A stretch of 64,000 nucleotides of DNA from Erythrobacter sanguineus (GTDB lineage: Bacteria > Pseudomonadota > Alphaproteobacteria > Sphingomonadales > Sphingomonadaceae), in assembly GCF_900143235.1 (NCBI RefSeq), contig NZ_FRDF01000006.1:1-64000 (forward strand), given 5' to 3'. The translations under genes were made by a program, and so were the position numbers. Below, one piece after another: positions 25,407 to 39,831 of this stretch. The notes under the pieces were generated by a model. The model was not told the origin of the DNA. It saw only the letters and a program-made list of their open reading frames with translations, and did no database searches. Position 1 is the stretch's first letter. Each line of letters begins with the position of its first letter.

Positions 25407-26402
25407 TCAGCCGGCGAATGGCGGTGCAGTGTGCGTTCCCCAAAGAGCCAGAACAGAGCGCAACGCGGTTACGAATGCCAATGGCTGGTCGAGCATCAGA
25501 TGGTGTCGCGCCTCAGGAACGGCAATTATCGGAATGTCACCTCCACCCAGTTCGCGAACATATTCGGCTGATTCCGGTGTGAAAAGCAGGCTCAAGCCGC
25601 CGTGTACGATAGCCTTTCGGCCCGGTGCCTGCACCAGACGCTCGCCCATGGTGAGCCATTCGTCGGGCTTGTTGCTCCTCCGAAAGACCTCGGTCGTGAA
25701 CTTCCAAGTCCACTCGTCTCCATCCTGCCGCAGGGAGTGATAGGCCATGTAGTCCAGCAGGAATGGCGCGCCGACCGGCTGGGGCGGGGAAAGGATGTAC
25801 CGCTGGCGCGCCGCTTCATAGTTGGGATAGCGCTTGCTGGGCTTGTCCGGATCGCCAGAACCTGGGCTGGACCGGCTGAGGTTCCAGTACTCGTCCAGGA
25901 GAGCAGGCCGCATGATCATGAGATCGCAAACCACCACTCCGGCAAAGGTCCCGGGCGATTGGGTCACGGCTGTCAGGGCCGCTCCCGATCCGAAGCTGTG
26001 CGCGATAATCGTCGGCTTTTGGCCATCCGCAAACATATTCAGCGCCTCGGCAATCTCGCGAAACTCGCCCCCCCTTGCCAAGAGGTCGGCGCGCCCGCGC
26101 ATCTCGCTGTCGCCCATGCCGGCCAGATCAAACGCTACCACATCATAGTCTTCGGCAAGAAACGGTGCAATGAAGGCGAAGCAGCGCGCATGGGCGAGAA
26201 AGCCATGCGTCATAAGCACCTTGGGCTTGCCCGGGTGACCCCAGCGAAAATAGTGCGCCTTGGCCCCATCGATTTCCACATAACCCTCTTCGCGCGGCAC
26301 CTTGAGGGCCGACACGAACCATTCGGGCAGATGCGAACCGTCACCAGCCCAAATCGGGTCGATGTCGGTCGGAAAATCTTCGATTCTCACCATCTCATTC
26401 AT
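25407..26402 (-). CDS. Alpha/beta hydrolase, probable lactone or ester hydrolase
   Basis: 331 residues. Catalytic serine lies in A-H-S-F-G-S-G, the oxyanion region in T-H-G-F-L, and a C-terminal His in P-E-A-R-H-H. The start codon overlaps the stop of the Baeyer-Villiger monooxygenase gene by one base (TGATG), so the two are translationally coupled. This suggests that the hydrolase opens the lactone or ester made by the monooxygenase. An alternative ATG lies three codons downstream. The substrate is inferred from context only. Confidence 0.75.
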   Translation of the reverse strand: MNEMVRIEDFPTDIDPIWAGDGSHLPEWFVSALKVPREEGYVEIDGAKAHYFRWGHPGKPKVLMTHGFLAHARCFAFIAPFLAEDYDVVAFDLAGMGDSEMRGRADLLARGGEFREIAEALNMFADGQKPTIIAHSFGSGAALTAVTQSPGTFAGVVVCDLMIMRPALLDEYWNLSRSSPGSGDPDKPSKRYPNYEAARQRYILSPPQPVGAPFLLDYMAYHSLRQDGDEWTWKFTTEVFRRSNKPDEWLTMGERLVQAPGRKAIVHGGLSLLFTPESAEYVRELGGGDIPIIAVPEARHHLMLDQPLAFVTALRSVLALWGTHTAPPFAG

Positions 26403-28036
26403 CAGGTTACGCAGTCCTTGTTCGCTGGTGTGCTGGCGGTAAAGCCGCGGTAGGCATCGCGCGCCACTTGGACGCAAATCGCGGCATAGGCCGACATGCT
26501 TGGGAAATTGATAAGCTGGCGCTTCTTGCCCGGGATGTTCGCGCCCATGTACCAGGAGTCCGCTTCGGGAAAGAGCGTCATCGCGCCAGCTTGGGCGACC
26601 ATTTCGGTCCAGCCATCTTCGGCTTGCGGTTGAGCGTCGAAAAGGAAGAAACCGTTGCTTCGCAGCCAGACCATGAAATCGCAGATCCAGTCGCCCTGCA
26701 TTTCCGCGCTTGTCGGCCCATTGGAAAATCCCGAGGGGCTGAGGGGGCCGTAAGCGAACAACATATTGGGGAAACCCGATACCGCCATTCCCAGATAGGC
26801 GCGCAAGCCGTGTTGCCAGGCCTGCGAAAGTGATTGGCCGCCTCTGCCGGTGATGTTCATGTCGATCAACCCGCCCCGCCCGGCGTCGAAGCCGGTGGCA
26901 AAAACGATGAAATCGCATTCGACCTCGCCGTCTTCGGTCGTGATTGCGTGCGGCGCGACACGGGTGATCGGGTTTGCCTTCAGATCAACCAGCGCAACAT
27001 TGTCCTGCGCGAAAATCTCGTAATATCCCTGTTCGAGCGAAGGCCGCTTCGTGCCGAACGGATGCGGCGGTTCGGATGGGGCGAGTTTCTCGGCCAGATC
27101 GGGATCGGCGATCCTCGCGCGAACCTTGTCGCGCCAGAAATCGTAGGCGTGGCGGTTGGCTTCGCGATTGGTAAGAATGTCAGCGAAATTGTGATACCAG
27201 AACCTCAATCCGCCCCGCTGCCACAGATCTTCGAAGTGCGCATTGCGCTCTTCTTCGCTGACTTCGAGCGCCGACACCTCAAGCGACTGGCATTCAAAGC
27301 CAGCGCTCGTCTGCCGACGCTGTTCGAAATAGGCGGGATAGCCATCCTTTTCGCGCTCGTGATCTTCCCTCGTCAACGGCTCCTGACGCATCGGCAGGGC
27401 CAGGATCGGAGTTCTTTGAAACAGTGTCAGCGACTCCGCACGTTTGGCTGCTTCCTGGGCGACCTGCACTCCGCTCGCTCCGGTTCCGATCAGGGCAACT
27501 TTGCGCCCATCCAGATCAATACCCTCCTGCGGCCAGCGCGCCGTGTGGCACCATTCGCCCTCGAAATCCTCAATGCCCGGAATGTCGGGGATAAACGGCT
27601 TCGACGCGAAACCGAGGGCTGGGAGCAGAAAGCGTGTCGATACGGGTTGCCCGCCCTCAAGTTGTAGGTGCCATAGTCCCGCCCCCGGTTCAAAACCGGC
27701 GCTCTCGACCCTCGACCCCATACGCATCAGCGGCCAAAGGTTCAGCGTATCGCAGACATGGAGGAAATAGGCCCTGAGTTCTGCCCATCCCGGAAAGCGC
27801 TCACTCCAGGTCCATGGCCGCCACACTTCGGGGATCGAGAATTCATAGAGCGGAATCTGCGAATCCACGCGTGCGCCGGGATAGCAATTCCAGTGCCAGA
27901 TGCCGCCCGGATCGGCCGCCGCATCGACCAGCAGCACGTTGAACCCGGCGTCACGCAACTTGTGGAGCAGGTAGATCCCGCTGAAGCCGGCACCGACGAT
28001 CACCGCGTCGTAATCGGGCGAAGTCTGGGTCGTCAT
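26402..28036 (-). CDS. FAD-dependent Baeyer-Villiger monooxygenase
   Basis: 544 residues from the ATG at 28034-28036. Two Rossmann motifs (G-A-G-F-S-G and G-T-G-A-S-G) flank the diagnostic class B fingerprint F-x-G-x3-H-x3-W-P (F-E-G-E-W-C-H-T-A-R-W-P). The length and G-G-I-W-H-W-N-C-Y-P-G-A-R-V-D segment match the cyclohexanone/cyclopentadecanone monooxygenase group, which inserts oxygen next to a ketone to give an ester or lactone. ATGA overlap with the acyl-CoA ligase gene upstream and coupling to the hydrolase downstream place it in a ketone-to-CoA-thioester route. Confidence 0.85.
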   Translation of the reverse strand: MTTQTSPDYDAVIVGAGFSGIYLLHKLRDAGFNVLLVDAAADPGGIWHWNCYPGARVDSQIPLYEFSIPEVWRPWTWSERFPGWAELRAYFLHVCDTLNLWPLMRMGSRVESAGFEPGAGLWHLQLEGGQPVSTRFLLPALGFASKPFIPDIPGIEDFEGEWCHTARWPQEGIDLDGRKVALIGTGASGVQVAQEAAKRAESLTLFQRTPILALPMRQEPLTREDHEREKDGYPAYFEQRRQTSAGFECQSLEVSALEVSEEERNAHFEDLWQRGGLRFWYHNFADILTNREANRHAYDFWRDKVRARIADPDLAEKLAPSEPPHPFGTKRPSLEQGYYEIFAQDNVALVDLKANPITRVAPHAITTEDGEVECDFIVFATGFDAGRGGLIDMNITGRGGQSLSQAWQHGLRAYLGMAVSGFPNMLFAYGPLSPSGFSNGPTSAEMQGDWICDFMVWLRSNGFFLFDAQPQAEDGWTEMVAQAGAMTLFPEADSWYMGANIPGKKRQLINFPSMSAYAAICVQVARDAYRGFTASTPANKDCVT

Positions 28037-29646
28037 GATGCGGCAGTCAGGCTCTCGGCAATTGCCTTCGCCGTTGCGTAGTCGGCCTTGCCGTTCGATG
28101 CGCGCAGGGGGGTATTCGTTGGATATATGGCCTTCGGCGTCTTGTATCCTGCCAACTGCCCCCGCACATGATCCTTGACGGCTTGCTCGTCGAACGGAGC
28201 GTCGCCGCTGAGGTGGACAACAGCGGTGACGGCTTGGCCCCATTTCTCGTTCGGCACGCCCACGACCAGCGCGTCACCAATGGCGGGATGGGTCTTGAGA
28301 ATCTCCTCGACTTCCTCAGGGTAAACTTTCTCGCCAGCAGTGTTGATGCACACGCTGCCACGGCCCAGCAAGGTCAGGCTGCCATCGGCCTCGACCGTGC
28401 ACCAGTCGCCGGGAATCGAATAGCGAACCCCATCGATTGTACGGAACGTTTTGGCGGATTTCTCGGGATCCTTGTAATAACCCGCCGGGATCGCCCCGGC
28501 GAGAGCGATAAATCCCGGTACGCCGCTTCCCGGCGTCACTTTCTGGTCGTTTTCGTCAAAGACATCGCAGCATTCGCCAATCGCAAATTTCGCGGTGTTG
28601 GTGCCCCCTTGCGCGGTTGTGATGGAGCGGCCGAAGCCGAGCCCTTCGGAAGCGCCGAAGCTGTCCATCAGCACCACCTGGGGGATATGCTTGCACAGCC
28701 CAGCCTTGACTTCCTTGCTCCACATCACGCCGGATGAAACGATGGTAACGAGGCTGCTGGTATCCCAGCGGCCGGGATTCTCGTCCAGCGCATGCAGCAT
28801 CGGCTTGGCAAATGCATCGCCCACAATTGCGATGCTTTGCACCTTGTGCTTATCGACTGTTTCCCACAATTCCGTCGCATCGAAGGACGGGTCTGCAAGT
28901 GTAACGATGGCGCCGCCCGACATAAGTGTGCCGATCGCGGTGATGAAGCCGGTCCCGTGCATCATCGGGCAGGAGGGCACAGTGCGGTTGCCGGGCCCTT
29001 GACTTGTGATCAACGCGACATGCTCTTCGAGTGTCTGAGGAACGGGGGCGAGCAGCTTCTGGGCCTCGAGCTGTGCTTTGCGCATTTGGTCGTGATGCCA
29101 CATCACGCCCTTGGGCATGCCGGTCGTGCCACCGGTATAGATGAAGAGCTGATCTTCGGGTGAGCGCACGATGCCGAGCGCCGATCCGTCGCCTTCTTGC
29201 GCGAATGTCTCGTAAGGGATCGCAAAAGGCGCGATTTGCGACGCCTCGCCAATTTCCACAAAGGTGTGCACCTTCTCGAGCCGGTCCTTGAGCTCGACGA
29301 TACAGTCGCGGAATTCCGAGTTGTAGACGATTACTTCGCTGTCGGAATCGTCGAAGATGTAAAAGACCTCCTCGGCGACATAGCGGTAGTTGATGTTCAC
29401 ATGGATCAAGCGCCCCTTAAAGCAGGCTGCCATCAACTCGCCATATTCTGGGCGGTTGCGCATATAAAAGGCGACCTTTGCGCCATCGCCAGCGCCGCGT
29501 TGACGCAGCGCGCGGGCAACATTGTTCGAACGCGCGGACATTTCGGGCCAGGTAATGATCCGGTCACCGTGGATCAGGGCCGGCGCATCCTTTGGCATGA
29601 CAGGCTCGAAAGCGTCGAGAATGTCGCCGAGATTCCAGTCGGTCAT
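28033..29646 (-). CDS. Acyl-CoA synthetase (ANL superfamily)
   Basis: 537 residues from the ATG at 29644-29646 (AGAGGAGAAC upstream). Adenylation motifs are Y-T-G-G-T-T-G-M-P-K-G (P-loop), F-G-A-S-E-G, G-D-W, and the late R-G-S-V-C-I-N-T-A-G-E-K-V-Y-P-E-E-V hinge. The catalytic Lys lies near the C-terminus (N-G-K-A-D-Y). The sequence is of the FadD17/FadD19-like long-chain, steroid or isoprenoid acid type rather than short-chain. It would activate the acid released by the hydrolase, feeding the acyl-CoA dehydrogenases encoded upstream. Confidence 0.82.
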   Translation of the reverse strand: MTDWNLGDILDAFEPVMPKDAPALIHGDRIITWPEMSARSNNVARALRQRGAGDGAKVAFYMRNRPEYGELMAACFKGRLIHVNINYRYVAEEVFYIFDDSDSEVIVYNSEFRDCIVELKDRLEKVHTFVEIGEASQIAPFAIPYETFAQEGDGSALGIVRSPEDQLFIYTGGTTGMPKGVMWHHDQMRKAQLEAQKLLAPVPQTLEEHVALITSQGPGNRTVPSCPMMHGTGFITAIGTLMSGGAIVTLADPSFDATELWETVDKHKVQSIAIVGDAFAKPMLHALDENPGRWDTSSLVTIVSSGVMWSKEVKAGLCKHIPQVVLMDSFGASEGLGFGRSITTAQGGTNTAKFAIGECCDVFDENDQKVTPGSGVPGFIALAGAIPAGYYKDPEKSAKTFRTIDGVRYSIPGDWCTVEADGSLTLLGRGSVCINTAGEKVYPEEVEEILKTHPAIGDALVVGVPNEKWGQAVTAVVHLSGDAPFDEQAVKDHVRGQLAGYKTPKAIYPTNTPLRASNGKADYATAKAIAESLTAAS

Positions 29647-29704
29647 ATTAGTTCTCCTCTCCGAATGGGGCGGCGGCTTTAGCGCGCGTCCCCCGGTAGA
29701 AACA

Positions 29705-30796
29705 TCACGCAGCTTTGGTCCAACCCTGAAGTGCCGCAGCCTCCGCCCGGACCACTTCTGGCCCACCAAGGACCTGCCGGTCGAATCCGATCCGTTTGAA
29801 CCAGTAGTGCAGGCCAAGCACGTCGGTGAATCCCATTCCGCCGTGCACTTCGATGGAAGTGCGTGCGACAAATCGATGGACCTCGGCCGTGTGCGATTTC
29901 GCATAGCAGGCAACCAGCGATGCCTCATTCGGCACCGCGTCGAAGGCGTGGGCGGCGTACCAGACGAGCGAGCGGCACGGTTCATGCCGCGCGGCCATCT
30001 CGGCGCACATATGCTTTACGGCCTGGAAACTGCCGATCAGGCGGCCGAACTGTTCGCGCTGGCCAGCATAATCGACAGCCTTTTCGATCATGGCCTGACC
30101 TGCGCCAAGACTGTCGGCGGCGAGGATAACACGACCCGCAGCGCGCAACCGGGCTGTTGCAACTCCGCCATCGTCAGCCAATGGTTCCGCCGCGGTCCCA
30201 TCAAAATGCAATTCCCCGACGCTGCGGGTGCGATCGATAGTCGTCAGCGCGATAGCTACCAACCCGGACGCTTTGGCACCGACAAGGTGCAGTCTGCCAC
30301 CGGAATCGGCGACGATGTAGGCATCGGCTCCTTCGAAATCGAGCGCGAACAGGGCGGTGCCGTTGAGCTTCCCGCCGACAGAGGAAACCCCCGCGCCGTC
30401 GCGCACCTCAATCGTCTCAGAAATAGCGACACCGATACGCGCCTCGCCGCTCGCGATCTTTGGCAGCCAGTGGGCCTTTTGCTCCTCGCTGCCCGCATCG
30501 CGCAAGGCGATCGGTGCGAGAGCCTGACTGGCGAGAAACGGCACCGGGGCTACCGCATAGCCAAGCTGTTCCGCTACCACCGCAGCGTCGAGCAAGGTCA
30601 TGCCGAGCCCGCCATGCTCTTCGGGGACCAGCATTCCGGCAACGCCCAGATCGTTGAGAGCCCGCAGCAACTGGTCGCTCAGCGGATTGTCACGCTCCGC
30701 ACATTCGCGGACATGACTGAGCGGGCTAGTATTGGCAAGACACCGCGAAACCGCGTCGCGCAACATCTGCTGGTCCTGCGAAAGTCCGAAATCCAT
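29705..30796 (-). CDS. Acyl-CoA dehydrogenase, small-subunit type (pair A)
   Basis: 363 residues with the three-part fold of acyl-CoA dehydrogenases. The FAD-binding R-E-Q-F-G segment and a C-terminal V-H-G-G-M-G-F motif are present. The start overlaps the stop of the larger dehydrogenase gene by one base (TGATG). Tightly linked large and small dehydrogenases are known to form alpha2beta2 enzymes in steroid side-chain breakdown (FadE28/29-like), in which active-site residues are shared. That quaternary structure is an inference here. Confidence 0.8.
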   Translation of the reverse strand: MDFGLSQDQQMLRDAVSRCLANTSPLSHVRECAERDNPLSDQLLRALNDLGVAGMLVPEEHGGLGMTLLDAAVVAEQLGYAVAPVPFLASQALAPIALRDAGSEEQKAHWLPKIASGEARIGVAISETIEVRDGAGVSSVGGKLNGTALFALDFEGADAYIVADSGGRLHLVGAKASGLVAIALTTIDRTRSVGELHFDGTAAEPLADDGGVATARLRAAGRVILAADSLGAGQAMIEKAVDYAGQREQFGRLIGSFQAVKHMCAEMAARHEPCRSLVWYAAHAFDAVPNEASLVACYAKSHTAEVHRFVARTSIEVHGGMGFTDVLGLHYWFKRIGFDRQVLGGPEVVRAEAAALQGWTKAA

Positions 30797-32046
30797 CAGT
30801 TTGCTCCCTGCTTCTGACTCGCCATGTCTGAGGCTTTTGGCCCTACATTCGAGGTCTTTGCCGGGTTCGGTTCACGCGGCATTTCAAGGCCGCGTTCAGC
30901 GATGATGTTTTTCTGGATCTGAGCGGTCCCGCCGCCAATGATGAGACCGAGTTGGAACATATAGTTCCATTGCCACGCCCCGCCTTCCCGCTCACGCGGG
31001 CTGTGGTGATAGAGAATGCCCAGTTCGCCCATGGCGTCGATTGCCAGCGCGGATATCTGGTGAGCGAGTTCACAGCTTTGCAACTTGACGATCAGCTTCG
31101 CCATGCCACCCGGCTCTCCTCTAAGGCTGTTCGAAAGGATACGCATCCCATTATATTTCATCGCCGCTACTTCGGCCTGAAGTGCCACTACCCGGTCGCG
31201 CAGTACCGGATTGTCGATCGCGCGACCCAGGCCCAAATGCTCTTCCTGCATCAGTGCGATCAGCGCCTGCAGCCGGTTTTCAAGCGCGTCGGGATCGCCC
31301 AGCATTCCGCGCTCATGGCCAAGGGTTGCATTCGCGACGAACCAGCCCTGGCCCCGCTGGCCGACAATCTGGTGCATGGGCACGCGCACATCGGTGAAGA
31401 ACGTCTCGTTGAACTCGGCGTGACCGGTCATCGTCTTTAAGGGGCGAACCTCGATGCCCGGCGTGTCCATCGAAAAGATCAGGTAGGAAATGCCGCCATG
31501 CTTGGGCGCGTCAGGTTCGGTCCTGACCAGGCAAAAGATCATGTCGGCCTGCTTGGCGGTGCTGGTCCAGATCTTCTGGCCATTGATAACAAATTCGCCG
31601 TTTTCGATGTGCGCGCTGGTCTTGAGGTTGGCGAGGTCCGACCCGGCACCGGGTTCGGAATAGCCCTGGCACCAGACGATATCGCCTTTCAACGTGGGTT
31701 CGATCCAGCGCCGTTTCTGTTCCTCGGTGCCGAGTTCGAGCAGGGTCGGCACGAACATCGAGATTCCCTGATTAGCAAGCCCGCCCGGCACCCTGGCCTG
31801 CGCAAATTCCTCTGCGATGATACGCGATTGGAGAATGTCCGGCTCCGCTCCATAGCCGCCATACTCCTGCGGGACCGTTCGCGCGGCATACCCATGCTCG
31901 ATCAACAGCTTCTGCCATTCGACCGCCTTGCACGAAGGTCGGCCCGCCCGGTCAGCAGAAGGCGGCGCGAGATGGCTGTGCGCTTCGATGAAAGCCCGCA
32001 CTTGCTTGCGGAAGACATCGTATTCGGGCCCATATTCAAGATCCAT
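30796..32046 (-). CDS. Acyl-CoA dehydrogenase, large-subunit type (pair A)
   Basis: 416 residues from the ATG at 32044-32046. It has W-C-Q-G-Y-S-E-P-G-A-G-S-D-L-A and N-G-Q-K-I-W-T-S as FAD and substrate motifs, and a C-terminal G-G-T-A-Q-I-Q-K-N-I-I-A-E-R. The same motifs recur in the second large subunit at 37531-38742, and both are followed by a small partner. It introduces a double bond alpha-beta to the CoA thioester. It lies 8 bases after the DUF35 gene in the leftward operon. Confidence 0.82.
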   Translation of the reverse strand: MDLEYGPEYDVFRKQVRAFIEAHSHLAPPSADRAGRPSCKAVEWQKLLIEHGYAARTVPQEYGGYGAEPDILQSRIIAEEFAQARVPGGLANQGISMFVPTLLELGTEEQKRRWIEPTLKGDIVWCQGYSEPGAGSDLANLKTSAHIENGEFVINGQKIWTSTAKQADMIFCLVRTEPDAPKHGGISYLIFSMDTPGIEVRPLKTMTGHAEFNETFFTDVRVPMHQIVGQRGQGWFVANATLGHERGMLGDPDALENRLQALIALMQEEHLGLGRAIDNPVLRDRVVALQAEVAAMKYNGMRILSNSLRGEPGGMAKLIVKLQSCELAHQISALAIDAMGELGILYHHSPREREGGAWQWNYMFQLGLIIGGGTAQIQKNIIAERGLEMPREPNPAKTSNVGPKASDMASQKQGAN

Positions 32047-32053
32047 GACGCTT

Positions 32054-32515
32054 CTAACTTTCACGCAGGCGGAAAACAGGAAGACGGAAGTCCTCACCGA
32101 TCAATTCGAATTCCACTTCCACCGGAAGGTCGAGCGCTAAGCGCTCGTGATCGCAACCAATCAGGCGCGTGGCCATGCGTACGCCCTCTTCCAATTCCAC
32201 CAGCGCCGCCACGAAGGGAATTTCGTCGGCAAAAGCCGGGTGGAGGGCTTGGTGGGTAACGGTCCAGGAAAACAGCGTGCCCTTGCCACTGCTGCGTTCC
32301 CAGGAGAATTCCGGCGAGCCGCACTTTGCGCACATATAGCGCGGCAGGTGGCGGAAGCAGCCGCAGCCGCCGCAGCGCTGGAAATAGAGATTGCCGTCCT
32401 GGCACCGCTTCCAGAATTCCTGCTCAACCGGGTCTTGCGGGCGAGGTCGCGGTTTGGGCGGCGCGACCTGCGCGGAGGGCCGCATTTTGGGAGGCAGATC
32501 GCTCTCGCTGCTCAT
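32054..32515 (-). CDS. Zn-ribbon OB-fold protein (DUF35), partner of the thiolase-like protein
   Basis: 153 residues. The zinc ribbon is C48-x2-C51 and C62-x2-C65, followed by an OB-fold of about 70 residues ([12 protein letters not shown], then [10 protein letters not shown]). Its start overlaps the stop of the thiolase-like gene by four bases (ATGA). DUF35 proteins form obligate complexes with thiolase-like partners, for example ChsH2 with the aldolase Ltp2 in cholesterol side-chain cleavage. A role as CoA-substrate handoff partner is therefore likely. Confidence 0.82.
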
Positions 32516-33702
32516 GTAAACCTCCTGAGAATGACAATGCTTCCATCGCCAAGGTCACCCCAGCCGGTAACTAGGCCGGTCTGGGCTCCTAGCACCTGGC
32601 GCTCGCCGCAGTCGTGACGAAGCTGGCGTACTGCCTCGACCACGTGGTTGAGTCCCCAGACATGCGCCTCACTGAGCAAGCCGCCATGGGTGTTGATCGG
32701 ATAGCGGCCACCCAGCTCAATCTGGCCATTGGCTACGAATTCGGCCTGTGCGCCCGGTTCGCAATAGCCCATCGCTTCCAGTTGCAGCAAAACGACATAG
32801 GTAAAGCAGTCGTAAATCTGCAGGAAATCCATGTCCTCGCGCTTGACGCCCGCCATGTCGAAAGCGCGCGGGGCAGCATAGCTGAGGCCAATCTTGAAGG
32901 GATCGGGCCGCGAAGGGATGTCGTCGGCTGGATAGGGGTGGCCTTCAGCGGCACCGGCGATGCTGACGGGCACATGGGGCATATCCCTGGCCCGATCCAT
33001 TCGCGATATGACTACCGCGCAGGCGCCATCGGTTTCAAGGCAGCAATCGTAAAGGCGAAAGGGCTCGGATATCCAGCGCGCCGAATGGTAGGTTTCCGCG
33101 TCGAGTTCGCGCCCATAGGTAAAGGCGCGCGGATTCAACTGCGCGTGACGCCGGCAGGCTAGCGCTACCGCTGCCATCGCATCCGCGCCCACGCCGTAAA
33201 GCTTCGAGTGGCGGGTCGCCAGCCAAGCATACATCTGCACCGGCAGGAACACACCATAGGGGATGTAATAGCCCTGGATGGTATTGGTCAGCGTGTTCAT
33301 GTTCATCGGCCGAGTAGGCGGGGCACCCGGTTTGGGCCTGAGGGCGGAATAGCCGTTCCAACCGAGCGTAACCAGCACGTGATCGCAAAGCCCGCAGGCG
33401 ATCGCCATTGCCGCGTTCTGCAGCGCCGTCGTCGGGCTGGCGCCGCCCATGTGAACTGTGGCCGCGTAGCGCAGCACATCAATGCCGAGATTGGCGGCCA
33501 TTTCCTCCGAGGTTGTATAGATCGGCGGCGGCACCATGCCGTCGATGTCGGAAGGTTTCAGCCCGGCATCCGCGATTGCGCGGCGCGAGGCTTCCAGCAT
33601 CATGTCCACTGCGGTCCGCTCGGTGCCCTTGACGAATGCGGTTTCGCCCACACCGGTTATGGCGGCCTTGTTGGCAAAGGGTAAGGTCTGCGAAGCGTTC
33701 AT
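32512..33702 (-). CDS. Thiolase-like protein lacking the nucleophilic cysteine (SCP2/Ltp type)
   Basis: 396 residues with the thiolase fold (I-T-G-V-G-E-T-A-F at the N-terminus, N-T-H-G-G-L-L-S-E near the C-terminus). At the position where thiolases carry the catalytic Cys the sequence is [10 protein letters not shown], without Cys. The C-terminal Cys loop of thiolases is also absent (T-G-L-V-T-G-W-G). These losses are those of lipid-transfer/Ltp2-type aldolases, not of beta-ketothiolases. The Y-D-C-F-T segment resembles the Ltp2 region containing a catalytic Tyr, whereas the segment holding its second Tyr reads S-E-A-H-V-W-G here. C-C cleavage by a retro-aldol route is a reasonable inference. 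Confidence 0.78.
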
Positions 33703-33726
33703 ACCGCGTCCCCGTCGTACCGCAAT

Positions 33727-34869
33727 TCAGGAACAGAATCTGGCATCGGCCAGCGCCCTTTCGGCCCCTTCGACAAGATCGCGCATGACCTCTGCCGCTG
33801 GACGGATCGAGTGGATCAGGCCAATTCCCTGCCCCGCGAAGCCAGGCATGATATCCTTGCGCTGAGCCTTGATGCCCGAAGCCATGACCGGCCCTGAAAT
33901 CATCGACTGGTAAGGCATGGGAAGCGGCTCCTTGCCCGCCGCAACCCAGGCATCGGCCCATTTGTTGCGGATCATGCGCGCAGGCTTGCCGGTCAACGAG
34001 CGGCTAACGACGGTATCTGCATCGCCGCCATCGGTTATTGCTTCCTTCTGGAACCGTTCAATCCCTGCCTCTTCGGTTGCCAGAAACGCCGTGCCGACCC
34101 ACGCGCCCAGCGCGCCTAACATCATCGCTGCGGCGACTCCCCGGCCATCGGAGATTCCACCCGCTCCAATCACGGGAACCCGATCGCCCACCGCATCGAC
34201 TACCTGCGGAATCAGCGAGAACGTTCCGATTGGGGAGTTGTGCCCGCCGCCATCGTGGCCCTGCGCCACAATCATGTCGATGCCGGAATCGACCACCTGC
34301 TGGGCGTGCTTGACCTTGCCGATCACCGCCATCACCTTGGTGCCATTGGAATGAAGGCGGTCCATCCACGGTCCGGGATTGCCGAGGCCGGCGGCATAGA
34401 CTGGCACCTTTTCCTCGATTACCACTTCCATCTGCGCCTCGAAAAACTCCCGCGTGAACAGCTGCAGCCCGCCCTTGCCCATTTCCGGCGTGCCAGCCGC
34501 GAGCATGGCCATTGCGGCATCCACTTCGGGCAGATCCTCGCGTTCCATGAAATCGCGGGTGAACTGCTGATATTCGCCAAGCAGTGCCATCGGGTTTTCG
34601 GGCGAGCCGCCGCTCTGCGGTGCCGACCCGCGCCTGACGGAAGCAGGCAGAAGGGTGTCGACCCCAAATGGCTTGTCGGTCAGTTCGCGGGTCTGGCGGA
34701 TCCAGCTGCGCAACTGGTTTGGCGAGCAGGCCGCGGCTCCAAGAACGCCAAGTCCCCCGGCATTCGATACGGCGGCCGCGAGCGCAGGGACACTTGCCCC
34801 ACCCATTCCGGCCAGAAGAATCGGGTATTCGATCCCGAGAATTTCGCAAATGCGGCTCTTGAGTGCCAT
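33727..34869 (-). CDS. Nitronate monooxygenase-like FMN oxidoreductase
   Basis: 380 residues from the ATG at 34867-34869. It is a TIM-barrel flavoprotein of the NMO/2-nitropropane dioxygenase family: Y-P-I-L-L-A-G-M-G-G-A-S at the N-terminus, A-Q-G-H-D-G-G-G-H, and the FMN phosphate-binding G-A-G-G-I-S-D-G-R-G segment. The catalytic His lies in G-G-G-H-N. Paralogues are common in beta-oxidation-type clusters of actinobacteria and sphingomonads, where they probably act as enoyl or quinone reductases. The nitronate activity is not to be taken literally. Confidence 0.75.
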   Translation of the reverse strand: MALKSRICEILGIEYPILLAGMGGASVPALAAAVSNAGGLGVLGAAACSPNQLRSWIRQTRELTDKPFGVDTLLPASVRRGSAPQSGGSPENPMALLGEYQQFTRDFMEREDLPEVDAAMAMLAAGTPEMGKGGLQLFTREFFEAQMEVVIEEKVPVYAAGLGNPGPWMDRLHSNGTKVMAVIGKVKHAQQVVDSGIDMIVAQGHDGGGHNSPIGTFSLIPQVVDAVGDRVPVIGAGGISDGRGVAAAMMLGALGAWVGTAFLATEEAGIERFQKEAITDGGDADTVVSRSLTGKPARMIRNKWADAWVAAGKEPLPMPYQSMISGPVMASGIKAQRKDIMPGFAGQGIGLIHSIRPAAEVMRDLVEGAERALADARFCS

Positions 34870-34913
34870 CGTAATACTCTCTCCATTCTGCGCCACCCAC
34901 CGGCGCCCGTTTT

Positions 34914-35654
34914 TTACGTCTGCCCCCACCTGACCTTCTGGGACACAAGCTCGGGGCTTCTTTCTGCGAGATAGGAGGCGGAGCCCGCCACGAGACGCGC
35001 CATCGCCTGCCGCGCTCCTTCGGCGTCGCCCTTGCGCACGGCTTCAAGGACGCGGCGCAAGAAACGCAACTGGACCGCACGCTCTTGCGCCGAATACCCC
35101 AGCGAGAGCGAAAATTCGCGGGTAAGCATGTGCAACGCGGAAGTCAGAAGGCCGAAAAGCGGATTTCCGCTGGCCCAGCCGAGCATGTCGTGAAAACGGC
35201 GATTCAGTTCCTCGAACTGGCTGCTCGCTTCGTTTCGCTCCAGCTCTTTGAGGCAATCGGCAAGTGCGCTCAGATCACCCGTGGTCGCGCGCTGGGCGGC
35301 ATAGGCTGCAACATCCGCCGCAATCGCTTCGCGCAATTCGAGCAAGCCCCTCAAGTCCGCCTCCATAAAATGCAGGATCAGCGAGAGGCTGTTTGCGAAA
35401 TCGCCAGTCTGCGGGCGTGCGACCACCGGCCCGCCACCGCGACCAAGTTGAAGATGGATAACGCCCTGGAGTTCAAGGAAGCGAAGCGCTTCGCGCAAGG
35501 TCGCTCGGGCGACATGGTATCGCGCAAGCATTTCGTCCTCGCGCGCCAACCTGTCGCCCGCAACATGCGCCCCGGCTTCGATATCGCGTACGATGTCCTG
35601 CGCAAGCGTGAGCGCACGCTTGGCCTTCCTCGAAGCATCGACCTTCGGTTGCAT
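34914..35654 (-). CDS. GntR/FadR-family transcriptional regulator
   Basis: 246 residues. The N-terminal winged helix (about 15-85) includes L-A-R-E-D-E-M-L-A-R-Y-H-V-A-R-A-T-L-R-E-A-L-x-x-L. An all-helical FCD ligand domain follows (about 95-230), with the metal-type pattern D-x3-A and H-x-M-L-G. It is the most upstream gene of the leftward module and divergent from the P450 gene. The 190-bp gap contains two copies of CCTTATAAG that could be its operators. The ligand is probably an acid or acyl-CoA of the pathway. Confidence 0.85.
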   Translation of the reverse strand: MQPKVDASRKAKRALTLAQDIVRDIEAGAHVAGDRLAREDEMLARYHVARATLREALRFLELQGVIHLQLGRGGGPVVARPQTGDFANSLSLILHFMEADLRGLLELREAIAADVAAYAAQRATTGDLSALADCLKELERNEASSQFEELNRRFHDMLGWASGNPLFGLLTSALHMLTREFSLSLGYSAQERAVQLRFLRRVLEAVRKGDAEGARQAMARLVAGSASYLAERSPELVSQKVRWGQT

Positions 35655-35681
35655 CTCTGGGAATCGCTCCTCTGATAAAAC

Positions 35682-35689
35682 CTTATAAG
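35682..35689. promoter_or_regulatory. CTTATAAG palindrome, copy 1
   Basis: CTTATAAG within AAAACCTTATAAGAGTTT, which extends to an AAA...TTT outer symmetry. It is 28 bp upstream of the GntR gene start. The 9-mer CCTTATAAG is repeated at 35757-35765. A candidate operator for the divergent regulator. Confidence 0.5.
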
Positions 35690-35757
35690 AGTTTGTCGGA
35701 TGACATGTCCAGCATCAGTCTATGAAGTTTGCAGTGCGGTCAAATATCCCAACAATC

Positions 35758-35765
35758 CTTATAAG
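35758..35765. promoter_or_regulatory. CTTATAAG palindrome, copy 2
   Basis: Second copy, in CAATCCTTATAAGCTTTATTG, 76 bp from the first and 80 bp before the P450 start. Two identical palindromes between divergent genes suggest joint control of the leftward and rightward halves of the alicyclic module. Confidence 0.5.
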
Positions 35766-35844
35766 CTTTATTGACCACACCCTGCGAAACATCTACCTGT
35801 TTGATAGCAAGGTGAGTCTGCTTGCCTGGGATGGAGGACGAGAC

Positions 35845-37107
35845 ATGAGCATCGACACGATGGAGCTGGATACTGCCGGAAAAGTTGCAGCCATTCCGAT
35901 CGACGAAATTGATGTCGCACGGCCGATTCTTTTTCAGCAGGACACGATCGGCCTGTATTTCGACCGGCTGCGCAAAGAGGAGCCGGTCCACTATTGCCGC
36001 GAAAGCTATGTTGGGCCTTACTGGTCGATCACCAAGTTCGACGATATCATGGCTGTCGACACCAACCACAAAGTCTTTTCGTCGGAGGCAAAGCTCGGCG
36101 GTATCGCCATTCAGGACATGCATTCGGTGGAAGGCGCGCTCGAACTTGAAATGTTCATCGCTATGGATCCTCCAAAGCACGACCAGCAACGCAAGGCCAT
36201 CACCCCCGCTGTAGCGCCGTCCAACTTGCTGTTGCTCGAACCGACAATCCGCGAACGAGCGTGTCAGATTCTCGATGATTTGCCGATAGGCGAGGAATTC
36301 GATTGGGTTGACAAGGTCTCCGTTGAATTGACCACGATGACCCTTGCCACCCTATTCGATTTCCCGTGGGAAGAACGCCGCAAGCTCACGCGCTGGTCCG
36401 ATGTCACCACCGCCGCTCCTGAAACCGGCATCGTCGAATCGTACGAAGCGAGGCGTGAAGAACTCATCGAGTGCGCGATGTATTTCAAAGGCCTGTGGGA
36501 GCAGCGCATCAACGAAGAACCGAAGAACGATCTGATTTCCATAATGGCGCATTCTCCGGCGACACGGGATATGCCCTTCCTTGAATTTCTGGGTAACCTG
36601 CTGCTGCTGATCGTGGGCGGCAACGACACCACGCGCAATTCGATAAGCGGAGGTGTGCTGGCGCTCAATCAGAACCCCGATGAATATCGCAAACTGAATG
36701 ACGACCCTTCGTTGATCGCCAGCATGGTGCCGGAAATCATCCGGTGGCAGACGCCGCTGACTCACATGCGCCGCACCGCGCTTCAGGATTGGGAGATCGG
36801 CGGCAAGCAGATCAAGAAGGGCGACAAGGTCGTGATGTGGTACCTGTCGGGTAACCGCGACGACACGGTTATCGAACAGGCCGACCGCTTCATCATTGAC
36901 CGCAAGAATCCGCGCCATCACCTGTCATTCGGTTATGGCATCCATCGCTGCATGGGCAACAGGCTGGCTGAACTGCAGTTGCGGATCATCTGGGAAGAGA
37001 TTCACAAGCGGTTCGCTAAGGTCGAAGTGACCGGCGAGCCCGAGCGCCTTTTCTCAAACCTTGTGCGCGGGATCACGAAGCTGCCGGTGCGGCTGCACGC
37101 GCGCTGA
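35845..37107 (+). CDS. Cytochrome P450, CYP153-type alkane/alicyclic hydroxylase
   Basis: 420 residues from the ATG at 35845 (GGAGGAC upstream); the longer frame from 35722 crosses an operator-like site. The heme ligand is C369 in G-I-H-R-C-M-G-N. The I-helix is L-L-I-V-G-G-N-D-T-T-R-N and the E-x-x-R motif is E-I-I-R-W-Q-T-P. The C-terminal stretch from F-G-Y-G-I-H-R onward follows the CYP153 pattern closely. CYP153 enzymes hydroxylate terminal carbons of alkanes and also cycloalkanes or terpenes, using a ferredoxin; one is encoded 26 bases downstream. Soluble, cytoplasmic. Confidence 0.85.
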   Translation: MSIDTMELDTAGKVAAIPIDEIDVARPILFQQDTIGLYFDRLRKEEPVHYCRESYVGPYWSITKFDDIMAVDTNHKVFSSEAKLGGIAIQDMHSVEGALELEMFIAMDPPKHDQQRKAITPAVAPSNLLLLEPTIRERACQILDDLPIGEEFDWVDKVSVELTTMTLATLFDFPWEERRKLTRWSDVTTAAPETGIVESYEARREELIECAMYFKGLWEQRINEEPKNDLISIMAHSPATRDMPFLEFLGNLLLLIVGGNDTTRNSISGGVLALNQNPDEYRKLNDDPSLIASMVPEIIRWQTPLTHMRRTALQDWEIGGKQIKKGDKVVMWYLSGNRDDTVIEQADRFIIDRKNPRHHLSFGYGIHRCMGNRLAELQLRIIWEEIHKRFAKVEVTGEPERLFSNLVRGITKLPVRLHAR

Positions 37108-37133
37108 TTTGCTGAAGCAGAAATACGGAGTTT

Positions 37134-37463
37134 ATGATGGTCAAAGTGACGTTCGTATCCAGCGATGGAACGCGGCGGGAAGTCGAAACTGCTGAGGGCG
37201 AAACCGCACGCGAGGCGGCGCTCTTCAATGATGTACCGGGCATCGATGGCGATTGCGGCGGTGTCTGTGCCTGTGCGACCTGCCATGTCCATGTCGATCC
37301 GGGCTGGATCGACACGGTTGGTCGTCTGAAGGAAGGCGAAGCGGAGGCCGAACTCCTGCAGTTTGCAGAAGGGGCCAACGAATACAGTCGCCTCGCCTGC
37401 CAGATCCCAATGGAGGCTGCGATGGAAGGTTTAGTTTTGCACGTTCCTGCGCAGCAATACTAA
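37134..37463 (+). CDS. [2Fe-2S] ferredoxin of the P450 system (putidaredoxin type)
   Basis: 109 residues. Iron-sulfur ligands are C41, C47, C50 and C89 (C-x5-C-x2-C...C). The C-A-C-A-T-C-H-V-H-V stretch is typical of ferredoxins serving bacterial class I P450s. Located directly after the CYP153-type gene. No dedicated ferredoxin reductase follows; the reductase at 15106-16332 or a chromosomal one would be needed. Confidence 0.88.
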   Translation: MMVKVTFVSSDGTRREVETAEGETAREAALFNDVPGIDGDCGGVCACATCHVHVDPGWIDTVGRLKEGEAEAELLQFAEGANEYSRLACQIPMEAAMEGLVLHVPAQQY

Positions 37464-37530
37464 CCAGCCAGAGCGCGGCCTTGTAGTCCGTCTGGGGAAC
37501 CACGAATTCAGCTCTTTCACGGAGGTTTCC

Positions 37531-38742
37531 TTGCCAACACAGCCAGAATCCGATGTCCAGGCAAGCGAAGACGCATTTCGCACCGAAGTGCGCCAATTCC
37601 TCGCTGCCCATTTCCCTGCTGAACTCAGCGGCACGGGCAATATGCTCGCCGGGCTCGACGGTCCGACCAACGAGACACCTGTGCAGAAGAAATGGCGAGA
37701 AGCCGTGGGCGAGCGTGGCTGGGGTACACCGACCTGGCCCAAGGAATATGGCGGCGGCGGACTGACCAAAGGCCAGGCCAGGATCATCGAGCACGAGTTC
37801 GCCAAGGTCGGTGCCTACAATCCGATCGGCGGAATGGGTGTGATGATGTTCGGCCCGACCCTGCTCGAATACGGCGATGAAAAGCAGAAGCTGGAGCATA
37901 TCCCGCCAATCTGCCGTGGCGAAATTCGCTGGTGTCAGGGTTACTCGGAACCGAATGCCGGATCAGACCTCGCGAACCTGCAGACCTTCGCCGTCGACAA
38001 GGGCGATCACTACCTCGTTAACGGCCAGAAGACCTGGACCAGCGGTGGCCAGTGGGCGGACAAGTGCTTTGCCATCGTCCGCACCGACCGGTCAGACAAG
38101 CACAAGGGCATCAGCTTCATGCTGATCGACATGGATGCACCGGGCGTTGAAGTCCGCCCGATCACCATGATCAGCGGAACGAGTCCGTTCTGCGAGACCT
38201 TCTTCACCGATGTAAAGGTGCCGAAGGAAAATCTCGTGGGCAGGGAAGGCCAAGGCTGGACTATCGGCAAACGCCTCCTTCAGCACGAGCGCACGAACAT
38301 TTCGGGCGGCGGGCGCCTTGCCGGCATGATGGGCCAGAGCCTTGCCGATGTCGCCAAGAAATACTGCGAAACCGGCGGTGACGGCGCGCTCGTCAACAAG
38401 GTCCTGCGCGACAAGATCGCCGATTTCGAGATCCGCTCGAACAGCTTCCTGCTCACCGCGCGTCGTGCGGTCGAGGAAAGCAAAGCGCAAGGCGGCGTTT
38501 CAGAGATCAGCTCGGTGCTGAAAAAGGTCGGCACCAAGTTGGCCCAGGAACGCAGCGAGTTGCTGATCGAAATCCGCGGCCTTCAAGGCCTCGGCTGGGA
38601 AGGCGACGAGTTTGGCGATGACGAACTCGAGGATGTGCGCGGCTGGCTCTTCGGCAAGGCAGCGACGATCTATGGCGGTTCGACCGAAGTCCAGAACAAC
38701 ATCATTGCCAAGCGGGTGCTCGGCATGCTCGACCACCAGTAA
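37531..38742 (+). CDS. Acyl-CoA dehydrogenase, large-subunit type (pair B)
   Basis: 403 residues starting at TTG, with GGAGGTTTCC upstream, the only good ribosome site near the frame start. Motifs are the same as in pair A: W-C-Q-G-Y-S-E-P-N-A-G-S-D-L-A, N-G-Q-K-T-W-T-S, and a C-terminal Y-G-G-S-T-E-V-Q-N-N-I-I-A-K-R. It is followed by a small partner 18 bases on. Read in the same direction as the P450 and ferredoxin, probably as one operon. Confidence 0.82.
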   Translation: MPTQPESDVQASEDAFRTEVRQFLAAHFPAELSGTGNMLAGLDGPTNETPVQKKWREAVGERGWGTPTWPKEYGGGGLTKGQARIIEHEFAKVGAYNPIGGMGVMMFGPTLLEYGDEKQKLEHIPPICRGEIRWCQGYSEPNAGSDLANLQTFAVDKGDHYLVNGQKTWTSGGQWADKCFAIVRTDRSDKHKGISFMLIDMDAPGVEVRPITMISGTSPFCETFFTDVKVPKENLVGREGQGWTIGKRLLQHERTNISGGGRLAGMMGQSLADVAKKYCETGGDGALVNKVLRDKIADFEIRSNSFLLTARRAVEESKAQGGVSEISSVLKKVGTKLAQERSELLIEIRGLQGLGWEGDEFGDDELEDVRGWLFGKAATIYGGSTEVQNNIIAKRVLGMLDHQ

Positions 38743-38760
38743 GCGAGGGGAGCAAGGACA

Positions 38761-39831
38761 ATGGCAGTTCTCAGCGAAGAACAGGAAATGCTGCGCGACA
38801 TGGCGCGCGACTGGGCGACCAAGGAAAGCCCGGTGTCCGAGTTCCGCAAAGTCCGCGCATCGGGCGAACCGCACGCCTACAACTCCAGCGCCTATGCCGC
38901 GATGGCCGAAATGGGTTGGGCCGGGATCATCATTCCCGAGGCGCATGGTGGATCGGATTTCGGCTTCATGTCGGCCGGCCTCGTGGTCGAGGAACTCGGC
39001 AAAACGCTGACCGCAAGTCCGCTGGTGACCACAACCATCGCGGCTGGTGCAATCCTGCTGGGCGGAAGCGACGAGCAGAAGGCCAAATGGCTACCCAGGC
39101 TTGCCAGCGGCGAAACCGTGGCAACGCTGGCTGTCGACGAAGGCGCGCATTGCGATCCTGCAGCAATCGCGACAAGCGTTTCGGGCGGCAAGCTGACCGG
39201 CAGAAAGGCATTCGTTCACGAAGCGCATGGCGCGAACCTCTTCGTTGTTGCAGCCAAAGACGGCCTCTACCTGGTCGAGAAGGGCGATGGCGTTTCACTG
39301 ACCACGCGCAAGCTCACCGACCAGCGCAGCCACGCCGATGTCTCTTTCGCTGGCGCTGCCGCCGAGAAGCTCGAGGGCGGAAGCGACAGTCTGCTTGACG
39401 ACGTGCTCGACCGGGCGCGCGTACTTTCGGCGGCCGAAATGCTCGGCATGGCGCAAGCCGTGTTCGACACGACCCTCGACTATCTGAAGCAGCGCGTACA
39501 ATTTAATCAGGTGCTCGCCACTTTCCAGGCGCTGCAGCACCGCATGGCGGACCTGTTCGCCGACCTTGCGCAAATGCGCTCCGCAGTCGAGGCGGGATTA
39601 CAGGCAGTCGACAGCGGCTTTGGTGTCGCGCGTGCAGCGACCATCGCCAAGGCCGAGGCAAATCGCGTTCTGCACGCGATCAGTAATCAGGGTATCCAGC
39701 TGCATGGCGGCATCGGGATGACCGATGAATTCAATGTCGGCTTCTACCTCAAGCGTGCTCGCGTGCTCGAGGCGAGTTGGGGGTCGTCGAGCTACCTGAA
39801 GGACCGTTTTGCCCAGCTATCCGGCTACTAA
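38761..39831 (+). CDS. Acyl-CoA dehydrogenase, small-subunit type (pair B)
   Basis: 356 residues. The flavin segment is K-Q-R-V-Q-F-N-Q and the C-terminal motif is L-H-G-G-I-G-M-T-D-E. Structurally the counterpart of 29705-30796, but too diverged for a recent duplication. With the large partner it probably makes a heteromeric dehydrogenase for a CoA-activated ring or branched-chain acid. Last gene of the P450 operon; convergent with the Nudix hydrolase. Confidence 0.82.
   Translation: MAVLSEEQEMLRDMARDWATKESPVSEFRKVRASGEPHAYNSSAYAAMAEMGWAGIIIPEAHGGSDFGFMSAGLVVEELGKTLTASPLVTTTIAAGAILLGGSDEQKAKWLPRLASGETVATLAVDEGAHCDPAAIATSVSGGKLTGRKAFVHEAHGANLFVVAAKDGLYLVEKGDGVSLTTRKLTDQRSHADVSFAGAAAEKLEGGSDSLLDDVLDRARVLSAAEMLGMAQAVFDTTLDYLKQRVQFNQVLATFQALQHRMADLFADLAQMRSAVEAGLQAVDSGFGVARAATIAKAEANRVLHAISNQGIQLHGGIGMTDEFNVGFYLKRARVLEASWGSSSYLKDRFAQLSGY

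Follow-up and report, generated by a model that had tools for sequence, protein, structure and literature searches.

A conserved gene module joining CYP153, a predicted side-chain aldolase and a Baeyer-Villiger monooxygenase in Erythrobacter sanguineus and Sphingomonadales plasmids, with alkylcycloalkanes as candidate substrates

Do the cytochrome P450, Baeyer-Villiger monooxygenase (BVMO), coenzyme A (CoA) ligase, acyl-CoA dehydrogenase (ACAD) and thiolase-like genes clustered on a contig of Erythrobacter sanguineus (NZ_FRDF01000006.1) serve a single pathway, and if they do, in what order might their products act and on which substrate? The cluster occupies positions 25407-39831 of a 64,000-nt stretch of the 2.98-Mb genome, hereafter the window, and an earlier note made from the sequence of the window had described it as one module arranged around a shared control region beside aromatic genes, probably directed at a non-aromatic substrate. 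The evidence assembled here supports that description and suggests a different order of reactions. We consider it reasonably probable that the locus encodes a single co-regulated catabolic module in which an alkyl chain would be hydroxylated at its end, activated with CoA and shortened by retro-aldol cleavage to leave a ketone, which the BVMO and a hydrolase would then open, with alkylcycloalkanes as the likeliest substrates.

All of the genes named in the earlier note were found in Pfam and NCBIfam profile scans, and its assignments were broadly right in type; one additional gene had been overlooked, encoding a flavoprotein similar to nitronate monooxygenase and FabK (NMO, 33727-34869). Several open reading frames (ORFs) are overlong when read from their first start codon, and likely starts were set by overlap with the preceding gene, a ribosome-site-like sequence or ortholog length, namely 26402 for the hydrolase (331 residues), 28036 for the BVMO (544 residues), 29646 for the ligase (537 residues), 32046 for the α-type ACAD subunit of pair 1, 34869 for the NMO and 35845 for CYP153 (420 residues). 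Four of the minus-strand gene junctions overlap, by 1 or 4 bases, as expected of one operon. In order of transcription, the nine minus-strand genes and then the four plus-strand genes are:

34914..35654, minus strand: FCD/GntR (FadR-type) regulator (Pfam FCD and GntR)
33727..34869, minus strand: FabK/nitronate monooxygenase-type flavoprotein (NMO), 380 residues, possibly an enoyl reductase (Pfam NMO, 237.8 bits)
32512..33702, minus strand: thiolase-like protein, predicted retro-aldolase (Ltp2/Sal-like; best solved match 6ok1_A, E 4.2e-71)
32054..32515, minus strand: DUF35/ChsH2 C-terminal-type OB-fold protein with a four-Cys zinc finger, predicted aldolase partner (Pfam OB_ChsH2_C and zf-ChsH2)
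30796..32046, minus strand: ACAD α-type subunit, pair 1 (Pfam N, M and C domains; NCBIfam pimC_large 228.7 bits, under the cut-off of 623.85)
29705..30796, minus strand: ACAD β-type subunit, pair 1 (Pfam Acyl-CoA_dh_N/_1; best NCBIfam match IpdE2, 134 bits, under the cut-off of 450)
28033..29646, minus strand: acyl-CoA ligase, 537 residues (NCBIfam PRK07798, 683.8 bits, above the cut-off of 543)
26402..28036, minus strand: type I BVMO, 544 residues (top solved match the BVMO 6jdk, 683 bits)
25407..26402, minus strand: Ser-type α/β hydrolase, 331 residues, probably an esterase or lactonase for the BVMO product (Pfam Abhydrolase_6/1; 1-base overlap with the BVMO gene)
35845..37107, plus strand: CYP153, 420 residues, predicted alkyl hydroxylase (CYP153A7, 3rwl, 632 bits)
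37134..37463, plus strand: [2Fe-2S] ferredoxin (Pfam Fer2)
37531..38742, plus strand: ACAD α-type subunit, pair 2, accessory (all three Pfam ACAD domains; pimC_large 279.5 bits, under cut-off)
38761..39831, plus strand: ACAD β-type subunit, pair 2, accessory (Pfam Acyl-CoA_dh_N/_1)

That these genes form one conserved module is evident from their recurrence in numerous bacteria from soil and the sea, and on plasmids. A search for conserved co-occurrence, the check that had been proposed for this locus, was run by scanning genome contigs with the BVMO; it recovered 112 relatives, and the 80 best loci were retained. The scan is BVMO-seeded and many of its loci are near-identical. In 58 of the 63 close loci, defined as those among the best 80 with a BVMO of at least 68% identity, all nine minus-strand genes are present in identical order and strand, the remaining five being interrupted by contig ends, and 57 of the 63 also have a CYP153 match alongside this operon. 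A second scan, seeded by the thiolase-like protein (Ltp) alone at E 1e-100 or better, covered 199 genomes of the same family and found the protein in 12 of them, its own genome included; at the same threshold it is absent from all three other same-genus genomes on the list. The 11 other genomes supply 12 family loci, genome G416 contributing two. Nine of the 12 hold all nine minus-strand genes, 10 hold a CYP153 of full or nearly full length, and eight (L160-L163 and L166-L169) hold the nine genes with both a full-length CYP153 and the ferredoxin; L151 and L165 are short contigs holding what fits, and the remaining two, L164 and L170, are damaged copies. Both genes of ACAD pair 2 occur in five of the 12 (in L165 as far as the contig end), with fragments in L161 and L166, and this patchy presence marks pair 2 as accessory.

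Additionally, the module is found on five Sphingomonadales plasmids, Sphingobium cloacae pSCLO_2, Croceicoccus naphthovorans p1, Blastomonas RAC04 pBSY18_1, S. yanoikuyae pF2 and Sphingopyxis fribergensis pSfKp5.2, all of which bear the nine genes with CYP153 (78-82% identical) and ferredoxin, their aldolase being 88-89% identical to that of the window. On the S. cloacae plasmid the P450 and ferredoxin genes are inserted between those for the BVMO and the hydrolase, such that the set is intact and its order changed. The patchy distribution and the five plasmids point to horizontal transfer. In S. fribergensis, the ferredoxin gene has AlkB, rubredoxin and aldehyde dehydrogenase genes at a distance of 7-9 kb, as would suit an alkyl substrate; no close AlkB was found in the other stretches searched. 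As the gene set recurs in the close loci, the family loci and the plasmids, we reject the idea of a local accident.

The region from which the two transcription units diverge carries a further, indirect sign of common control. The interval between the regulator gene (35654) and the probable start of CYP153 (35845) contains two perfect CTTATAAG palindromes:

35682..35689: CTTATAAG palindrome 1, candidate operator, on the regulator side
35758..35765: CTTATAAG palindrome 2, candidate operator, 5 bases upstream of TTGACC, a -35-like sequence

The two copies in the window compare with 0.14 expected, and only three occur in the whole genome, where a control pattern, reversed without complementing, has 43 matches per strand; the third genomic copy is on contig C11 among ORFs, one of them integrase-like, that look unrelated, judged from translations alone. 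A set of 28 distinct intergenic sequences was drawn from 70 loci and examined for CTTATAAG-like sites at no more than one mismatch. At least two such sites are present in 17 of the 28 regions, and the 42 sites found in total compare with 3.1 expected from mononucleotide shuffles. The TTGAC of the TTGACC near palindrome 2 is likewise kept in most aligned sequences. From its sequence, the palindrome pair has the look of a shared operator, and we regard it as a candidate for one.

These observations bear on one alternative, in which an alkane operon with CYP153 and an unrelated operon with the BVMO and CoA genes happen to be neighbors. The operons are indeed divergent, parts of the minus-strand set are found without CYP153 in distant genomes, and the second copy in G416 (L164) has the nine genes but lacks ferredoxin and retains just a 136-residue fragment of CYP153. 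Against this, CYP153 stays with the minus-strand operon in the close loci, the family loci and all five plasmids at the frequencies given above, once even between the BVMO and hydrolase genes, and two copies of a very rare palindrome separate the operons. A chance juxtaposition is, in our estimation, barely credible.

The P450 belongs with CYP153, as had been proposed: its closest solved relatives by a wide margin are CYP153 enzymes (CYP153A7 at 632 bits, the next four at 546-581), and the best CYP125-type match among the chains listed scores 269. It resembles CYP153A7 and other CYP153 alkane hydroxylases in family and in the adjoining ferredoxin gene, and differs from the others in its linkage to an aldolase/BVMO module. 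The BVMO carries the stretches FEGEWCHTARWP and GGIWHWNCYPGARVD, both of which fit the type I fingerprints, FxGxxxHxxxW[P/D] and GGxWxxxxYPGxxxD, and its best solved matches are BVMOs. The hydrolase has S136, H300 and H301 invariant in 12 aligned rows, and its structural model (pLDDT 84) gives a thioesterase domain, esterases and other α/β hydrolases as the top Foldseek matches, which are general to the fold, none being decisive. Adjoining α-type and β-type ACAD genes occur twice, and from this pairing we infer that each pair is heteromeric. Among solved structures, the NMO is matched best by FabK-type enoyl-ACP reductases and by a 'putative nitroalkan dioxygenase'.

The order of reactions turns on the thiolase-like protein, which had been read, together with its DUF35 neighbor, as a chain-shortening pair; its residues and best solved relatives point rather to a retro-aldolase that forms a ketone. 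The top solved matches of the two proteins are the two chains of one entry, 6ok1, a 'lipid-transfer protein' with ChsH2(DUF35) (E 2.6e-22 for the DUF35 protein against 6ok1_B), and chain A is presumably TcLtp2. Gly87 aligns with the nucleophilic Cys of the SCP2-thiolase 6hsj, and Gly stands at this position in all 112 aligned rows (duplicates included); with the N-terminal-half Cys of thiolases absent, a thiolase identity for this SCP2-like protein was rejected. Its YDCF motif (Y297, C299) conforms to the Y-D-[H/C]-[F/Y] pattern of the SCP2-type CoA aldolases (Ltp2/Sal), and His347 occupies the third catalytic position. The DUF35 gene adjoins and overlaps that of the thiolase-like protein, and its product, 153 residues long and without a MaoC domain, has a C48-x2-C51-x10-C62-x2-C65 zinc finger, the four Cys of which match the description of ChsH2-type partners (PMC12329534). 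The same source describes CtSal, from the bile-acid aldolase CtSal/CtShy, as having a Gly at the thiolase nucleophile site and a catalytic dyad, Tyr302/Cys304 of a YDCY motif, shown by mutation, and TcLtp2 as relying on YDHF and Tyr344 (PMC12329534). The window pair resembles CtSal/CtShy in the Tyr-Asp-Cys dyad, the Gly and the DUF35 partner, and differs from it in having His347 vs Gln352, a four-Cys finger vs Cys3His, and a DUF35 protein that is not fused to MaoC (PMC12329534). Because of the Gly at the nucleophile site, the CtSal-like dyad and the best solved relatives, we predict by analogy that the thiolase-like protein is a retro-aldolase, probably one that yields the ketone for the BVMO; its residues would fit such an enzyme with a third residue found in neither studied enzyme, TcLtp2 or CtSal.

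The alignment of the thiolase-like protein comprises 112 rows (61 distinct), 95 of which (47 distinct) are at least 46% identical to it, and in all 95 (duplicates included) the Gly-Gly, Y-D-C-F and His are retained. Among the 17 rows below 46%, there are 12 YDCF with Tyr, two YDCF with His, two YDAF and one YDSF with His, the third position being Tyr in 12 and His in five; the Tyr-Asp-Cys dyad is present in 109 of the 112 rows overall. When 40 of the 61 distinct rows were placed in a tree, all those at or above 46% fell in a single clade of 26 with support 99/98, all having His. As His also occupies the third position in five distant rows outside this clade, His alone does not define it. The aldolase is labelled 'transporter' in the plasmid records (L137, L138 and L175-L177), which is probably a misannotation.

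The residues just described also weigh on the order implied by the earlier note, a cyclohexane-type route in which CYP153 would be followed by oxidation of an alcohol to a ketone, the BVMO, hydrolysis, CoA activation and thiolytic β-oxidation. Pathways for cyclohexane and cyclohexanone combine a P450 or other hydroxylase, an alcohol dehydrogenase, a cyclohexanone monooxygenase and a lactone hydrolase, such that cycloalkane routes with a P450 and a BVMO do exist, and the module shares with them a P450, a BVMO and a hydrolase, all present here together with a ligase. Unlike those pathways, however, it has no alcohol dehydrogenase and adds a CoA ligase, ACADs and an aldolase, a combination that suggests that the ketone probably comes from aldol cleavage. 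The note had itself remarked that the window's module holds neither an alcohol dehydrogenase nor an enoyl-CoA hydratase, and none was found there. Furthermore, CYP153 enzymes are chiefly terminal hydroxylases, and the supposed thiolase has no nucleophilic Cys in any aligned row and the aldolase dyad in nearly all. We judge the cyclohexane-type order improbable; CoA activation, dehydrogenation and aldol cleavage probably precede the Baeyer-Villiger step.

A further precedent is the degradation of the steroid side chain, where a two-subunit ACAD desaturates onto C17, a hydratase adds water and Ltp2-DUF35 cleaves to leave a C17 ketone; the igr operon of Mycobacterium tuberculosis and ORF40-44 of Comamonas testosteroni TA441 encode ChsE1E2, ChsH1H2 and Ltp2-DUF35 for removal of a propionyl side chain (PMC12502768). 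The module resembles these operons in grouping two-subunit-type ACAD genes, a DUF35 partner and an Ltp-type aldolase, and by analogy its predicted logic would be the same, to dehydrogenate, hydrate and cleave by retro-aldol reaction to a ketone. It differs from them in having CYP153 rather than CYP125 (the gene for which, we assume, adjoins the igr genes), in having neither ChsH1 nor a MaoC half, in a YDCF aldolase with His vs YDHF with Tyr, and in adding a BVMO, hydrolase, ligase, NMO and FadR-type regulator. One may ask, then, whether the locus is itself a module for steroid or terpenoid side chains, an igr-type operon whose ring ketone, for example a 17-ketone, is opened by the BVMO. A plasmid of Prescottella equi (DSSKP-R-001 plas2, L140) carries a 44% identical aldolase homolog and DUF35 inside a P450/VOC/ACAD/MaoC cluster, which we take to resemble oestrogen-degradation clusters, and chsE1/E2, chsH2 and ltp2 have their counterparts here in the ACAD pair, DUF35 and Ltp (PMC12502768). 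The P450, however, lies far closer to CYP153A7 than to any CYP125-type chain listed, the ChsH1 and fused MaoC-DUF35 hydratase of igr-type operons are both missing, and 25 ORFs of the window beyond the module, when scanned with Pfam, fell into families of aromatic catabolism or of general function with no evident steroid-ring cluster, no genome-wide search for steroid genes having been made. We hold a steroid or terpenoid role to be unlikely.

Taking these points together, the favored sequence would begin with hydroxylation of the alkyl-chain end by CYP153 and ferredoxin, host alcohol and aldehyde dehydrogenases yielding the acid. The ligase would form the acyl-CoA and an α/β ACAD pair the 2-enoyl-CoA, and a hydratase from outside the window's module would then hydrate a branched or ring β-carbon to a tertiary alcohol, which could not be oxidized to a 3-ketoacyl-CoA. 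Retro-aldol cleavage by the thiolase-like protein and DUF35 would release acetyl-CoA (or propionyl-CoA) and a ketone, the BVMO would convert the ketone to a lactone (from a ring) or an ester, and the hydrolase would open it to a product destined for β-oxidation, perhaps by way of ACAD pair 2 where present. Since the ketone would come from the aldolase, no ketone-forming alcohol dehydrogenase is required, and because an unbranched chain would enter normal β-oxidation, a β-branched or cyclic substrate is implied. The likeliest substrates appear to be alkylcycloalkanes, the tail of which would be cut to cycloalkyl-acetyl- or -propanoyl-CoA. Two points favor them: a ring carbon is the site of action of the Ltp2-type analogues, and the reported products of alkylcyclohexane oxidation include cycloalkyl-acetic acids, cyclohexylacetic acid among them (PMC7778628).

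A methyl-branched chain, nonetheless, fits nearly as well. The same aldolase-then-BVMO scheme could act on an acyclic, β-methyl-branched isoprenoid or branched alkane, with a 3-hydroxy-3-methylacyl-CoA cleaved to a methyl ketone, the BVMO forming an acetate ester and the hydrolase releasing acetate and a shorter alcohol. The enzymes fit this version equally well, CYP153 and the AlkB neighborhood suit branched alkanes, and the hydrolase model resembles a general esterase-type fold. No feature identified here singles out an acyclic ketone, however, and 6jdk, the nearest solved BVMO, reportedly acts on cyclic ketones. The studied ACAD and aldolase analogues of the Ltp2 pathway act at a ring β-carbon, C17 of steroids (PMC12502768). 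An acyclic substrate strikes us as possible and, on this evidence, rather unlikely.

Several observations nevertheless count against an alkylcycloalkane module of this kind. No feature of the sequence points to a ring. The third catalytic residue, His347, departs from both Tyr344 of TcLtp2 and Gln352 of CtSal, and at this position the protein does not conform to the SCP2-type aldolases. The ACADs score under the curated cut-offs of the families that they resemble (for PimC and PimD in NCBIfam, 228.7 and 279.5 bits vs 623.85, and 114.2 and 141.7 vs 652.7), this being true of both pairs. The NMO, ACAD pair 2 and a Coq4-domain protein found at related loci have no explained role in the proposed route, and pair 2 is present in none of the five plasmid modules. 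In one family locus (L170:1-6000, genome G452), the BVMO is an N-terminal piece only and the hydrolase is absent, seven genes remaining with CYP153 and ferredoxin. No CTTATAAG-like site at one mismatch is present in six of the 28 distinct control sequences, accounting for 30 of the 70 loci and mainly of a Qipengyuania/Erythrobacter type; by eye, most of the six show a related TATAAG/TATACG element at the same place. Beyond the close relatives, a BVMO match at threshold is missing from the stretches covered at 14 of 17 distant Ltp loci, L119 and L120 among these having weak matches of 26-27%, and the BVMO of L122 lies on the other strand. Finally, the window's module contains no enoyl-CoA hydratase and its DUF35 protein no MaoC half, and the enoyl-CoA hydratase paralogs of the same genome are at most 39% identical to a hydratase of the S. 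cloacae module, with two MaoC matches over cut-off; none of these lies on the window's contig.

With respect to the hydratase, the related loci provide a partial answer. No MaoC domain was detected by Pfam among the 13 module proteins scanned. The S. cloacae module does encode an enoyl-CoA hydratase, divergent from the regulator, and relatives of it (46-50%) lie near Ltp-DUF35 in Rhodococcus DMU1 and in L071, where the Ltp is only 34% identical and has a YDSF motif; another is on the BVMO locus L068, some 7 kb away from the BVMO. L065 and L117 have, near Ltp-DUF35, a hydratase of MaoC type and a zinc-type alcohol dehydrogenase, and no hydratase is annotated beside the other four plasmid modules. 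The gap is only partly resolved by these occurrences. The Coq4-domain protein was considered as the missing hydratase and set aside: it is not in the window's module, and there is no clear complementarity, because S. cloacae has the hydratase without Coq4, and Blastomonas and Croceicoccus have neither annotated.

The earlier note had proposed that homologous sets split among unrelated pathways would speak against a single module. No such splitting was seen in close homologs; parts of the set do occur alone in distant genomes. Ltp-DUF35 is near a BVMO without a CYP153 match in L065 and L116 (one genome), in L122 and in L131, which has two BVMOs. Across the distant Ltp loci, four BVMOs occur at three of 17 loci (about 316 kb); the 16 genomes (about 70 Mb) hold 102 BVMO-type matches, a density that predicts about 0.5, and the enrichment is only moderate. 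At distant loci, Ltp-DUF35 is also accompanied by an ACAD pair (L117, L131, L132) or by genes for ring-hydroxylating oxygenases (L118-L120). The link between Ltp and BVMO is loose beyond the clade of the module itself.

The separate enzyme types are known, and it is the joining of a side-chain aldolase operon to a terminal hydroxylase and a Baeyer-Villiger step that opens a ring or chain that appears to be a new combination. The inferred sequence of ligase, dehydrogenase, hydratase, lyase, cyclohexanone and caprolactone is reminiscent of a cyclohexylacetate route, reportedly established by Ougham and Trudgill in 1982, that is said to proceed via a 1-hydroxycyclohexylacetyl-CoA lyase and cyclohexanone; unlike the window's, that route is said to have been worked out biochemically, in another organism, and we know of no genes assigned to it. 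Neither this gene set nor a gene for a cyclohexylacetyl-CoA lyase was found described among the open-literature matches listed, which is weak evidence of absence given that subscription papers lay mostly outside the coverage. A genome survey gives the enzymes for cyclohexaneacetic acid as unknown (PMC4591350). If true, the alkylcycloalkane reading would supply genes for the cyclohexylacetate route and would explain how even-chain alkylcycloalkanes escape the block to β-oxidation. More broadly, the components of oil that degrade slowly include cycloalkanes and branched alkanes, and a conserved, portable gene set could carry such compounds past that block while providing marker genes; the module also suggests that aldolase chemistry of the steroid side-chain type operates beyond steroid catabolism. 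More tentatively, and at somewhat less than an even chance, we propose a widespread, plasmid-mobile pathway for retro-aldol tail removal from alkylcycloalkanes and ring opening by BVMO and hydrolase, with a separate class of SCP2-type aldolase bearing a Tyr/Cys dyad and His.

Some features of the surroundings merit mention. Most of the rest of the window is given to aromatic catabolism (ring-hydroxylating dioxygenase subunits, an XylR-type activator, a DmpG-type aldolase and aldehyde dehydrogenases). A NUDIX protein adjoins the module, its membership being uncertain:

39865..40635, minus strand: NUDIX protein (Pfam NUDIX)

Homologs of it stand beside the module in seven of the 80 scan loci (within the flanks covered), in L160 and L168, and in all five plasmid loci (63-67%). 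Elsewhere in the window, a fatty-acid-desaturase/AlkB-like membrane protein (22255-23358; 26% identical to S. fribergensis AlkB) is followed by a BenC/MmoC-like reductase (23489-24529), and the pair is possibly a second hydroxylase system. The Coq4-domain protein lies between the NMO and aldolase genes in 30 of the 80 scan loci (L054:3855-4547 and equivalents), nine of the 12 family loci and two plasmids (L175:14207-15004, L177:17207-18004), and AarF/UbiB-family genes are near the module on three plasmids, such that ubiquinone-type proteins adjoin a catabolic operon. The two module copies in G416 differ, L160 having an aldolase 98% identical to the window's and the same flanking genes, and L164 an aldolase at 93% and a Coq4 gene. 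A second α/β hydrolase paired with a PaaI-type thioesterase is found near several modules (L175:9171-10411, L177:12168-13462, L176:27657-28948, L014:19070-20304). Finally, near-identical modules appear in metagenome-assembled genomes labelled as the unrelated genera Afipia (L003) and Dechloromonas (L061), which reflects either misbinning or recent transfer.

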